From assembly GCA_001600415.1 (NCBI GenBank), contig BCJX01000005.1, positions 742,109 to 806,108 of the forward strand: a DNA stretch of 64,000 bases, given 5' to 3'. This DNA comes from Pascua guehoae. Taxonomy: Eukaryota; Basidiomycota; Tremellomycetes; Trichosporonales; Trichosporonaceae. Below, piece after piece: positions 6,468-10,158 of this stretch. A model generated the notes under the pieces. The model was not told where the DNA came from. It searched no databases and saw only the letters and a program-made list of their open reading frames with translations. A program made the translations under genes and the position numbers. Positions within the stretch are counted from its first letter, which is position 1; each line of letters opens with the position of its first letter.

Positions 6468-9400
6468 ATGCCCCGCGTGACTACCCCGCGCCCAAGGAGG
6501 GCAAGCAGCGGTGTCAACGGCTACGACGGTCACTATGGCCGCGCCGACCGCTTCGAGCGACATCACCTGGCGAATATGGTCAAGACCGAGCCCCATCTGG
6601 AGATCGATATCGACAGCGACAGCGACAGCGAAAGGCTCAACGTCAGCGACAATGACAGTCTCTGCAGCCTTGCGTCGTCTGCGTCGTCGCGGAAACCCAG
6701 CCCGTCGCCCTTGCCAGCCTCTCCCTCGAAATTCACGCGTACACCGTCGCCACCCTCCTCGCGGAAAGTCACTCCCACGCCGTTGCCAGCCTCCTCCCGT
6801 TCACGCTCCAAATTCACCCCCCCCACCGCTTCACCAGCCTCCTCGCGGTCGAAATTTATCCCCTCGCGCTCTCCCTCACCCACCCACACCCACTCCCACA
6901 CACCCTCGCCAGCCTCCTCCAGCTCGTCGCTACCCACACTCACTCCCTCCCCCACCCCCTCTGAACCAGCGTCCTCACCACCATCCGAAACTGCGCCCTC
7001 ACCCCCATCCGAAACTGCGCCCTCAGCCCCACCTGCGCCCTCGCACGAACCCGCCGTCCTCCACCCGCACGGCCTGGACGCGCCCGTAAAGGTCCAAGTG
7101 GACAACCACTGGCTGTACCTCTTCTTCCGCTTCTGCGCCGAGCGGCACGCCATGTACGACCGGCGCGAGGCGGGCGTCGCGCGCGACCAGCTCACGACGG
7201 ACGAGACGATGCAGAGTCTGCATATTGGCAATGTGTTCCGCGAGCTGGACCCGTCGTCGAAGCGGAATCTGGATATGATTATCAATGTTGGCGACCAGTC
7301 GTATGTCGAGGTTTGCTGTGAGTTGCGTCGGGCGCGGGCGGAGTGTGCTGGGCTGGAGTGGTGCTTTGTGGCGAACGGGGTGGTGGGGTGGTCTACTTGC
7401 ACGTGGCGATTGTTCGGTCTTGTCGAGCTGTGCCGGAGTAGACCGCACCGGGATTGCGATGGAGGCGGGCATGCTGTTGAGACAGCACGAACAAGTGCAG
7501 GGGTTAGAGCTGCTCGCTGGTCGGAGGTGCCATTTGACCAGACTGGCGGCCAAGCGTGCCACCTAGTCGCCGACGCAGGTCATCTTGCCTGCTGATCTGG
7601 CGCCGGGCCAGCAGGATGACCCCAACCGCGCGGCAAGTTGCCTGCTCCTGCTCGCGAACTGCTGCTGTTGACCGCAAAAGAGCACAAGAACGGCAGGGAT
7701 GAGTCCTGCGGGCGTCATCCTTTGCAACGTCTAACGCCTGGTCCATGATTCAGCTCTGGCCGCAGCATGACTCGATGCAGCACTGGGCGCCAACCTCGAG
7801 ACCCAACTGACCCCCCAGTCCGCCTCCTCCTCTTCACCGCCTTCTACAACCCCGACACATGGGCGGCAATGTGCGACGCATGCGGCGGCGTGCCCTCGTG
7901 GCGCGACTTCAACCTCCGCGCGCTCGAGTCGTGCCTGCACCGCCGGTCGATAATTGAGCGCAAGAAGATCTACTATGGCGGCTTCCAGCTTGTCCCGCCC
8001 ACAATCTACTTCTCTGAAGACCGGAACCGCGCAAAGACAATTCCGCACTATGCCGCGTCCCTCCGGCTCGTCATGGCCATGATGCGCGCGGGCTTGCCCG
8101 ACCAGCTGCGGGGCTGCAAGTATGCCGTCGACGCGAGCGAGGTGCTCCAGACCATCCCGACGCTGGGCGGGTTTCTGAGCCTCAACATTTTGTGCGAGCT
8201 CAACAACTCGGACTGTTATTCGTTTTATTATCGCAACTTTGCGACGTGCGGGCCCGGGTCGCGCATGTACCTCCAGCGCATCTTTGGGAAAAATGTCATC
8301 AACAGCCCCATGATGGAGGACGCGGGGCTCGTGTGGGTGTACCAGAACCAGTGGCGGTACTGGGCCAGGTGGGTTTGGCTGGCTGTTTTGTCGCTCGCGG
8401 GTGGGGGCGGCGTCGCGCATGGCCCGTCACGGCACGCGAGAGAGAGGGGGTTCGAGAGCGACTACAGACTAGGGCACGCTGGATGTTGGGCAGTAAATCC
8501 GTTCAAACAACCAGTGCCGTGGATGGTCGAGTTGAGCAGGGTAGCGAGGTAGCCTCCATCCCCTCTCCTCTGTCTCCTCCCCCCTCTGTCCCCTCTGTCC
8601 CCTCTGTCCCCTCTGTCCCCTCTGTCCCCTCTGTCCCCTCTGTCCCCTCTGTCCCCTCTGTCCCGTTCCTCCCCTCCCATCGTCCCTCCCCCCGTCAGCC
8701 CCAACCCCACCTTACCCCCACCCCCACCCCTCCCGCTCACCCCAGACTCAACATCGACCCACCCCACGCCTCCCAACTCGGCCTGCCCCCCGGCATGCGC
8801 GTCCTCGACATCGAAAACGCAATGTGCTGGTGCCATCGGTACGTGAATGCGATCCGCAACAAGGGCCTGCCGAACCTGGGCGAGGCGGCGCATCCCACGT
8901 ACGACCCAGAGGTGACCGAGACGGCTGGCGCGCCTGCGTGGTGCGTCGAGGAGCGGTGGGCCGAGAGCTCGAGCAAGGCTGCGTATGCGGGGGATTATGA
9001 CGAGGTCAAGCAGAGGTTGGATTCGTTGGGGGATGATGTGTGAGTGTTTCGGCGTTTCCACTTGATTGCTCGGCGCTTTTGAAGTGCTCGAGTTTACTGC
9101 ACGGAAGACTGCCGACTGCCGACTGCCAACTGCCGACTGCCGACTGCTCGACTGAGCTCCTCGACTGCTTGACTGTAACGGCTCGACTTCTGAGCTCCTC
9201 GACTTGTCAGCTTCTCCCATCTCGACATGTCAGCATTTCGGCATGGTCAACATTTCGACATGTCAACATTTCCGCCTCCCTCGCGACACCATGACCCTCC
9301 GACACTCCCACACTCCGACACTCCAACTTTGACGTGTCATCGCTGACGCGCTGACGCTGACACGCAGGTACGAAGTGGAAAAAGTAATCGCGCGCAAGGG

Positions 9401-10158
9401 CAACAACCGGTCCGACAAGCGGGGCATCTTCCGCGTCCGGTGGAAAGGGTGGACGCCAGAGGAGGATACGTGGGAGCCCCTGTCGACTCTGAAGGCTGGC
9501 GCCGAGGAGGTGAGTCGAGTGGCGGGGGGATGCTGGGGGGATGATACTGAGGCGTGGGGGATACTGAGGGCTCGCGGTGGAGGCTGGGGGAAAAGAGGGA
9601 CATTGTGTCCACGGGGGACACTGGGACACGGGGGACACGGTGTCCACGGGGGAGAAGGACACGGTGTCCGAGAGGGACACGGGGGACACGGGGGACACGA
9701 TCGACACGGGGGACACGGGGGACGAGAGGGACACGGGGGACGAGAGGGACACGGGGGACACGGGGGACACGATCGACACGGGGGACACGGGGGACGAGAG
9801 GGACACGGGGGACGAGAGGGACACGGGGGACACGGGGGACACGGGGGACACGGGGGACACGGGGGACGCGGGGGACACGGGGGACGAGAGGGACACGGGG
9901 GACACGGGGGACATGGTTTCCACGCTGTCCACGCTGCCCACACTGCCCACACTGCCCACACTGCCCACGCTGTCCACGCCGTCCACAGGGAACACTGGCG
10001 AGGAAACCTTGGACGCCACACCACCCACGCGCCACGCTGACCCCCAGGCCCTGCAAGACTGGCTCGACTGGGAGGAGCGCGTGTGGAGCAGCATTGCGAG
10101 CGTCAAGGCGGAATACCCGTATGCCGTGCCCGTCATTGCCGGCGAGGTATCAGAGTGA
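6468..10158 (+). CDS. Chromodomain protein with a 5-hmdU-DNA-kinase-helical / thymine-hypermodification-like domain
   Basis: Five exons, 6468-7317, 7819-8368, 8746-9039, 9368-9509 and 10048-10158, close in phase to 648 residues; every intron is GT-AG. Residues 40-200 are a low-complexity Ser/Pro linker with an acidic SDSDSDSE patch. Residues about 213-510 resemble the all-helical domain of phage 5-hydroxymethyl-dU DNA kinases and related glutamyl/putrescinyl-thymine enzymes: [42 protein letters not shown], a glycosylase-like [10 protein letters not shown] and [13 protein letters not shown]. No P-loop is present, so this is not a complete kinase. Residues 565-608 are a chromodomain ([24 protein letters not shown]) with aromatic-cage candidates Y566, W590 and W593. 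The chromodomain joins the upstream domain only if the donor at 9040 is used; unspliced DNA stops at 9041-9043. Nuclear, chromatin-targeted action on DNA is inference; catalysis is unproven. Confidence 0.8.
8580..8664. repeat. 9-bp tandem repeat (CTCTGTCCC)n in intron 2 of the chromodomain gene
   Basis: About nine nearly perfect copies of a 9-bp C-rich unit lie inside the 377-nt intron 8369-8745. There are no unique spacers, so this is a minisatellite and not a CRISPR array. Confidence 0.9.
9107..9148. repeat. 7-bp tandem repeat (GACTGCC)n in intron 3 of the chromodomain gene
   Basis: About six copies with small variations lie within intron 9040-9367. They are followed by irregular repeats of a GACATGTCA-like word around 9220-9270. 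Confidence 0.75.
9597..9915. repeat. Large 9-bp minisatellite (GGACACGGG)n in intron 4 of the chromodomain gene
   Basis: More than 30 copies of a 9-bp G-rich unit occur, including a variant GACGAGAGG that itself recurs in higher-order blocks. The array fills most of the 538-nt intron 9510-10047, between the chromodomain exon and the last exon. The 9-bp period keeps long frames open on both strands, which produces several spurious Gly/Arg/Pro-rich ORFs. Confidence 0.93.
9919..9986. repeat. Second 9-bp array (CTGCCCACA)n at the end of intron 4
   Basis: About seven copies of a C-rich 9-bp unit directly follow the G-rich array, just upstream of the acceptor at 10047. Confidence 0.85.

Follow-up and report, generated by a model that had tools for sequence, protein, structure and literature searches.

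Why would a basidiomycete join a domain that phages and bacteria apparently employ in DNA modification to a reader of chromatin? The question is raised by a gene in a 64,000-nucleotide stretch of the Pascua guehoae genome (assembly GCA_001600415.1, contig BCJX01000005.1, positions 742,109 to 806,108; hereafter the window, whose numbering we use). Located on the + strand at 6468–10158, the gene encodes a 648-amino-acid protein in which a helical domain of the HMUDK_hel family (PF18723) precedes a chromodomain. An original prediction, made from the sequence of the window, described a phage-type, possibly base-modifying or base-recognizing domain within what would be an undescribed epigenetic system. 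Our analysis requires three corrections to this interpretation: the kinship of the domain is bacterial-type rather than with M6-like phages, the domain would present or recognize bases and is not a kinase, and three residues invariant in its sampled non-fungal relatives have been substituted. The best reading, to which we assign a probability of roughly 50%, is a chromatin-bound, probably non-catalytic protein that recognizes DNA or a base within it.

Enumeration of splice sites and translation gave five exons and four GT-AG introns of 501, 377, 328, and 538 nt (7318–7818, 8369–8745, 9040–9367, and 9510–10047), with the frame open throughout. Exon 1 (6468–7317) contains the start codon, a Ser/Pro-rich, low-complexity N terminus (residues 1 to ~205) and, from 7107, the beginning of HMUDK_hel, and ends at the donor GTGAGT. 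The core of the domain (residues 284–466), with a helix-hairpin-helix (HhH)-like stretch, PTLGGFLS, and a GPG motif at residues 428–430, lies in exon 2 (7819–8368). Exon 3 (8746–9039) carries the end of the domain (residue 502, ~8851), followed by a linker toward the chromodomain, which begins at residue 566 (position 9369) in exon 4 (9368–9509) and finishes in exon 5 (10048–10158; residues 613–618), together with a C-terminal stretch and the stop codon. The exon 5 acceptor at 10047 preserves the frame and agrees with homologues, while an alternative acceptor at 9988 was rejected because it breaks the frame.

The identity of both domains is directly supported by Pfam. HMUDK_hel matches residues 214–502 over profile positions 2–274 of 281 (246 bits, E 6.5e-73), above the curated family cut-off of 25, and Chromo matches residues 566–618 (42 bits, E 7.5e-11). 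The helical domain had been proposed to span residues ~213–510 and the protein to lack a P-loop kinase; both proposals agree with the Pfam results, in which neither a kinase family nor any other additional family appears at E ≤ 10. Across the 33.6-Mb genome (28 contigs), HMUDK_hel matches only two exons of this gene, and there is no second copy.

Are the two domains truly encoded together? Support for the splice junctions comes from homology, through 22 homologues aligned to the P. guehoae protein, and not from cDNA. Junction 1 is crossed without an insert by 15 rows and with an insert by 3, and is not covered by 4; the corresponding numbers are 20, 0, and 2 for junction 2; 15, 5, and 2 for junction 3 (9039/9368); and 19, 0, and 3 for junction 4 (9509/10048). 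The junction 1 inserts (P0022, P0025, and P0036) resemble unspliced introns of metagenome predictions, those at junction 3 fall within the length-variable linker, and P0022, P0025, and P0027 diverge just past junction 4, as if intron 4 had been read through. Gene products named by NCBI, such as Kwoniella P0001 and Cutaneotrichosporon P0006, span all four junctions. Since homologues span the junctions, both a chance gene model and an unlinked chromodomain exon can be ruled out, and the five-exon gene of the original prediction stands.

The fusion is also conserved. A search of ~5.8 billion proteins with residues 205–648 as query returned 39 relatives at E ≤ 1e-3 (best E 6.2e-197), of which 33 are annotated with both Pfam domains, 4 with HMUDK_hel only, and 2 (P0038 and P0039) with a chromodomain and other domains in the absence of HMUDK_hel. 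A profile built from eight domain sequences gave 56 matches that overlap these relatives. Many metagenome entries are gene fragments, and all such counts are of entries, not species. Named relatives with both domains include proteins of Kwoniella, Cutaneotrichosporon, Vanrija, Naematelia, Kockovaella, and Parajaminaea; by sequence, the fusion is common to Tremellomycetes and one species of Ustilaginomycotina. No Cryptococcus protein was named among the fungal matches, in a search that was not designed as a test of absence. Judged from these homologues, the fusion gene is real and its conservation goes far beyond chance. It is not, however, undescribed in the strict sense, as the names HMUDK_hel and chromodomain already stand together in database records of the relatives. 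Iyer, Zhang, Burroughs, and Aravind are also said to have predicted related DNA-base-modification proteins in basidiomycetes in 2013, in work that may cover the fusion. In our literature searches, which covered few subscription papers and a small part of the broad result lists, none of the titles and abstract openings dealt with the fungal fusion.

What does the chromodomain recognize? In addition to its Pfam match, it possesses the three aromatic cage residues noted in the original prediction, Y566, W590, and W593. The cage is aromatic at all three positions in each of the 54 entries that could be parsed among 76 from two fungal searches; the 76 include the two proteins without HMUDK_hel, which, with P0028, make up the three chromodomain-like entries left unparsed for the cage pattern. 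The best solved matches are the chromodomains of CDYL and MPP8, and the target predicted from sequence is most likely histone H3 methylated at lysine 9 (H3K9me). The same genome contains a match to Pre-SET, of the H3K9 methyltransferase type, in a stretch with two in-frame stops that are probably introns, and a partial chromo-shadow match.

A PDB sequence search returned one match (E 0.99, judged to be chance) for the fungal helical domain and none for phage versions, and NCBIfam gave no match for five proteins. As the 50 rows of a whole-protein Foldseek search consisted only of chromodomain-bearing entries, the fold was judged from VIA-align and from the model of a bacterial homologue. These predicted models resemble the HhH DNA-glycosylase superfamily, with matches that include OGG1, AlkA, Endonuclease III, and MutY, and suggest that the domain belongs to this fold; the best match is a thymine-modifying phage glycinyltransferase. 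On these predicted models, the comparison with HMUDK and DNA-glycosylase folds that the original prediction proposed would favor it. HhH glycosylases carry a catalytic Asp after the hairpin. Judged by motif spacing, without superposition, the GPG-type motif sits about where this Asp is expected.

To compare residues, we aligned 53 non-fungal rows (bacterial-type, other, and phage) with 14 fungal rows. Eleven positions are invariant in all 53 non-fungal rows: R226, N255, R258, D261, F402, D410, G428, G430, C494, E495, and K498 (P. guehoae numbering). The P. guehoae protein keeps eight of them (R226, N255, R258, D261, F402, G428, G430, and C494) and replaces D410, E495, and K498 by E, W, and R, which places it outside the bacterial/phage subgroup that the full set of eleven defines in this sample. 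In exon 3, the bacterial and phage motif C-E-x-x-K-Y thus becomes C494-W495-x-x-R498-Y499. Seven core positions are preserved in 14 of 14 fungal rows. D410 is retained in only one of them, P0044 from Ceraceosorus; position 495 is W in 13 and gapped in P0044, and at position 498 twelve rows have R and one has K. Counted more widely, 53 fungal entries contain the motif, and 52 of them have W after the cysteine; the remaining one, P0044, has E there and beyond it a tail that is not homologous. Because residues invariant elsewhere in the sample are replaced in nearly all sampled fungal sequences, an enzymatic role that has stayed the same is disfavored, and altered specificity or lost coupling to a partner is favored.

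P0044 (Ceraceosorus guamensis, Ustilaginomycotina) is the sole sampled fungal copy with the bacterial D plus E at the key motif. Its C terminus looks misannotated, and judged by its residues P0044 may be closer to an enzyme than any other fungal member.

Where did the fungal domain come from? We assembled 67 rows, comprising the P. guehoae protein, 13 further fungal, 18 bacterial-type, and 11 other proteins, and 24 of 98 phage loci. Among the rows labeled bacterial, organism names are available only for P0110, P0145, and P0191, the others having been assigned by similarity from database or metagenome entries. Bacterial-type proteins take all of the first 16 places among non-fungal BLAST matches of the P. 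guehoae domain, with P0110 at the top (29% identity, E 1e-33); the best phage match is Brevibacterium phage LuckyBarnes (E 1.6e-13). Comparison of bacterial and fungal profiles gave a probability of 99.9 (E 1.7e-36). In a maximum likelihood tree of these rows, which were our own selection and for which the root is a drawing aid, the 14 fungal rows are monophyletic (support 100/100) on a long stem of 1.43 changes per column, and the P. guehoae protein groups with those of Kwoniella, Vanrija, and Cutaneotrichosporon (7 fungal rows, 100/99). The half of the tree that holds the fungi (100/98) also contains 18 of 18 bacterial-type, 6 of 11 other, and 9 of 24 phage rows, while M6-type phages lie in the opposite half. 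Support for the fungal sister group is only 83/58, and several phage branches are long. BLAST ranks and tree placement both disfavor kinship with M6-type phages, so that the description of the domain as phage-type fails for phages like M6, although it could hold for others: in view of the nine phages in the fungal half, a phage donor of another, non-M6 type is possible. The simplest history suggested by these sequences would be one ancient capture, with bacteria and not M6-type phages as the source. A search of viral_contigs with the fungal alignment gave 45 pattern matches, of which 0 were confirmed.

If the domain is not itself a kinase, what does it do in phages? In tblastn searches, the fungal domain matched 147 phage records at E ≤ 10, including gp055 of Pseudomonas phage M6. 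The M6 HMUDK_hel gene adjoins a 5-hydroxymethyldeoxyuridine (5-hmdU) DNA kinase (PF18748); close by are an amino acid:DNA transferase (PF18724), a PLP-type enzyme, an Nmad5 protein, and an annotated thymidylate synthase. In LuckyBarnes, HMUDK_hel adjoins two annotated glycosyltransferases, of which the one scanned matches the TET-associated glycosyltransferase (TAGT) family, and an annotated thymidylate synthase is near; Bacillus phage SBSphiC has the helical domain fused to the kinase. A survey with our own profiles covered 102 loci: 98 from phages, two that are exons of the P. guehoae gene, and two DNA-methylase exons of the P. guehoae genome that lack the domain. The phage loci are not independent and include near-duplicates; 80 are the best 80 of 204 from one M6-type-seeded scan, 4 come from a Microbacterium-seeded scan, and 14 are from annotated phages. 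HMUDK_hel is present in all 98, a kinase in 64, a glycosyltransferase in 17, both in 0, and neither in 17 (some on short contigs), and 86 contain thymidylate synthase. Strict exclusion between kinase and glycosyltransferase is nonetheless refuted by Microbacterium phage Quartz, which has a TAGT-type glycosyltransferase nearby and also an annotated thymidylate kinase (P-loop) that misses the kinase profile and weakly matches a thymidylate-kinase-like profile. This co-occurrence with one enzyme or the other suggests that HMUDK_hel is an interchangeable subunit that recognizes 5-hydroxymethyluracil (5hmU) in DNA for a kinase or a glycosyltransferase.

The bacterial relatives point, more weakly, in the same direction. 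Of 7995 candidates scored with a profile that combined one fungal protein with eight sequences from the phage side, 1691 reached E ≤ 1e-4; many of the best 120 have 320–400 residues. In a scan of bacterial genomes, at least 577 of 589 stretches were confirmed, with loci in Actinomycetota, Myxococcota, Pseudomonadota, and others. We analyzed the neighborhoods of the best 80 loci (L103–L182), up to 7 kb on each side and less at contig ends, naming neighbor families from one representative each. The helical domain was redetected in 77 of the 80, and two of its open reading frames are fused to a kinase. The most frequent neighbors are MazG_C (60 loci), an IrrE peptidase (46), a 283-residue protein (41), and XRE (26), followed by TIR (16), Nmad2 and a thymidylate-kinase-like protein (15 each), SLOG-TIR (12), and thymidylate synthase (11). 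No Pfam family matches the 283-residue protein; a two-sequence profile of it matches CMP 5-hydroxymethylase structures over ~100 positions (E 0.0011). Thus the bacterial context, too, hints weakly at 5-hydroxymethylpyrimidines, with the flavor of a conflict system.

The bacterial family has the look of an uncharacterized base-modification or conflict system. None of the five bacterial and phage HMUDK_hel proteins submitted to PADLOC had a match, and the fungal protein P0001 matched only a model for orphan methyltransferases, at residues 463–516, in the chromodomain region; a defense-system label is unsupported by these results.

Which partner enzymes does the fungus possess? No TAGT glycosyltransferase was found in the P. 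guehoae genome by a search whose positive control worked. The HMUDK kinase (PF18748), ADDT, and Tet_JBP also gave no genome match, in searches for which no control matched and which are therefore not evidence of absence. HhH-GPD exons are present elsewhere in the genome.

How might the fusion protein work? We envision that the chromodomain holds it on methylated histone H3, most likely in H3K9me heterochromatin, where HMUDK_hel would contact DNA and accept an extrahelical base, presumably by base flipping. In bacteria and phages, as gene context suggests, the domain would present a 5-hydroxymethylpyrimidine base to another protein, a kinase or glycosyltransferase. An ancestral basidiomycete could have acquired it, most simply from bacteria, and then fused it to a chromodomain, after which most sampled fungal lineages would have replaced the three residues that show no variation among the bacterial and phage proteins sampled. 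Catalysis or coupling to a partner may have been lost, and the protein may act in silencing or genome surveillance.

The bacterial and phage contexts examined point to 5-hydroxymethylpyrimidine modification, the seven core positions persist throughout the fungal rows, and a thymine-modifying transferase is what the predicted models match best in structure. All three would fit DNA-base hypermodification that still operates, with the domain presenting 5hmU or another base to some fungal kinase, glycosyltransferase, or amino-acid transferase and the modified base being laid down on H3K9-methylated chromatin. We regard this as doubtful, though possible, given the replaced residues and the lack of a TAGT match in a controlled search; the missing HMUDK kinase, ADDT, and TET/JBP matches point the same way, though with no control to back them. 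The base-modifying role of the original prediction is weakened on the same grounds. In addition, work published in 2025 on TET/JBP genes carried by fungal transposons reports them from Pucciniomycetes, Agaricomycetes, and Pezizomycetes, and no word beginning Tremell- occurs in the main text (PMC12730594). A variant that we consider unlikely is that basidiomycetes place a modified-thymine or -cytosine mark, or a dedicated reader of one, on H3K9-methylated chromatin, using a captured bacterial module for 5-hydroxymethylpyrimidine DNA modification whose pocket was re-tuned to suit another base, D/E/K having become mostly Y-or-F/W/R.

It is also conceivable, if fairly unlikely, that contact with bases has been lost altogether and the helical domain has been domesticated as a scaffold that binds protein, or DNA in general, within a silencing complex, its base-modification ancestry being history only. 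The long stem before the fungal clade, the conservation within it, and the loss of the three invariant residues would all be expected; however, R226, N255, R258, D261, and both GPG glycines are almost completely kept across the compared rows, which argues that the ancestral binding surface is still in use. Heterochromatin-targeted DNA repair, in which the HhH fold would recognize or excise an oxidized or deaminated base, such as damage-derived 5hmU, and the chromodomain would direct the repair factor to silent chromatin, has in its favor the glycosylases among the fold matches. We consider it quite improbable, as the two invariant glycines of the GPG-type motif lie near the site expected for the catalytic Asp and HhH-GPD exons occur elsewhere in the genome. 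A chromatin-bound protein that recognizes DNA or a base, probably without catalysis, remains our preferred reading. The conserved fusion, which ties a domain associated with thymine modification to a reader of histone methylation, would offer a direct handle on whether such bases are written or read in the silent chromatin of fungi, and the bacterial and phage contexts suggest what the domain is for, namely the recognition of 5hmU for whichever modifying enzyme is at hand.

Other features of the locus and genome may be noted. Tandem repeats occur in introns 2, 3, and 4, several with 7- to 9-bp units: a 9-bp repeat at 8567–8664 in intron 2, several repeats in intron 3 (9107–9324), and, in intron 4, repeats spanning 9597–9987, with a 9-bp/72-bp array at 9610–9913 (~34 copies of the 9-bp unit) that occupies most of the intron. 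The product of the upstream neighbor (4612–5361, − strand) matches the glycosyl hydrolase catalytic core family Glyco_hydro_cc (E 1.4e-31). The downstream neighbor (10598–14039, − strand) resembles an Mbp1/Swi6-type cell-cycle regulator by the look of its sequence, and the stretch scanned (11257–13134) gives Pfam ankyrin repeats. From ~17500 to 58200, over ~40 kb, there is no open frame of ≥330 amino acids, and GC is 0.545–0.638 per 2 kb, on average below the flanks; this region could contain many-intron genes or be repeat rich. A cytosine DNA methylase gene, with two exon matches, is present in the same genome (G000:C1:1682549-1683783, − strand).

How does the protein compare with known systems? 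P0110, from a Nocardioides metagenome-assembled genome and named a nucleotide kinase domain-containing protein, has the same Pfam domain; unlike the P. guehoae protein, the bacterial proteins have no listed chromodomain and keep D, E, and K. Phage M6 gp055 and its relatives (5-hmdU DNA kinase, helical domain; aGPT-Pplase1) belong to the same Pfam family as the fungal domain and have R, N, R, D, GPG, and C in common with it, but identity to M6 gp055 is ~24%, and the M6 gene lies beside a P-loop kinase, with thymidylate synthase nearby. Phage PaMx11 gp46, a 5-PmdU glycinyltransferase (PDB 8z2n and 8z2m), is 11–12% identical and forms part of a separate Pfam family, being ADDT-type by sequence; membership of HMUDK_hel in ADDT is unconvincing (profile comparison probability 1%), although the folds are alike. 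The queuine salvage enzyme DUF2419 (PDB 7ugk and others), crystallized with queuosine nucleosides and nucleotides, is 9% identical. Finally, H3K9me3-binding chromodomains of the MPP8/CDYL type match by sequence (E 8e-7 to 6e-6) with all three cage positions aromatic, whereas in P. guehoae the specificity is a predicted one and the partner domain is HMUDK_hel.

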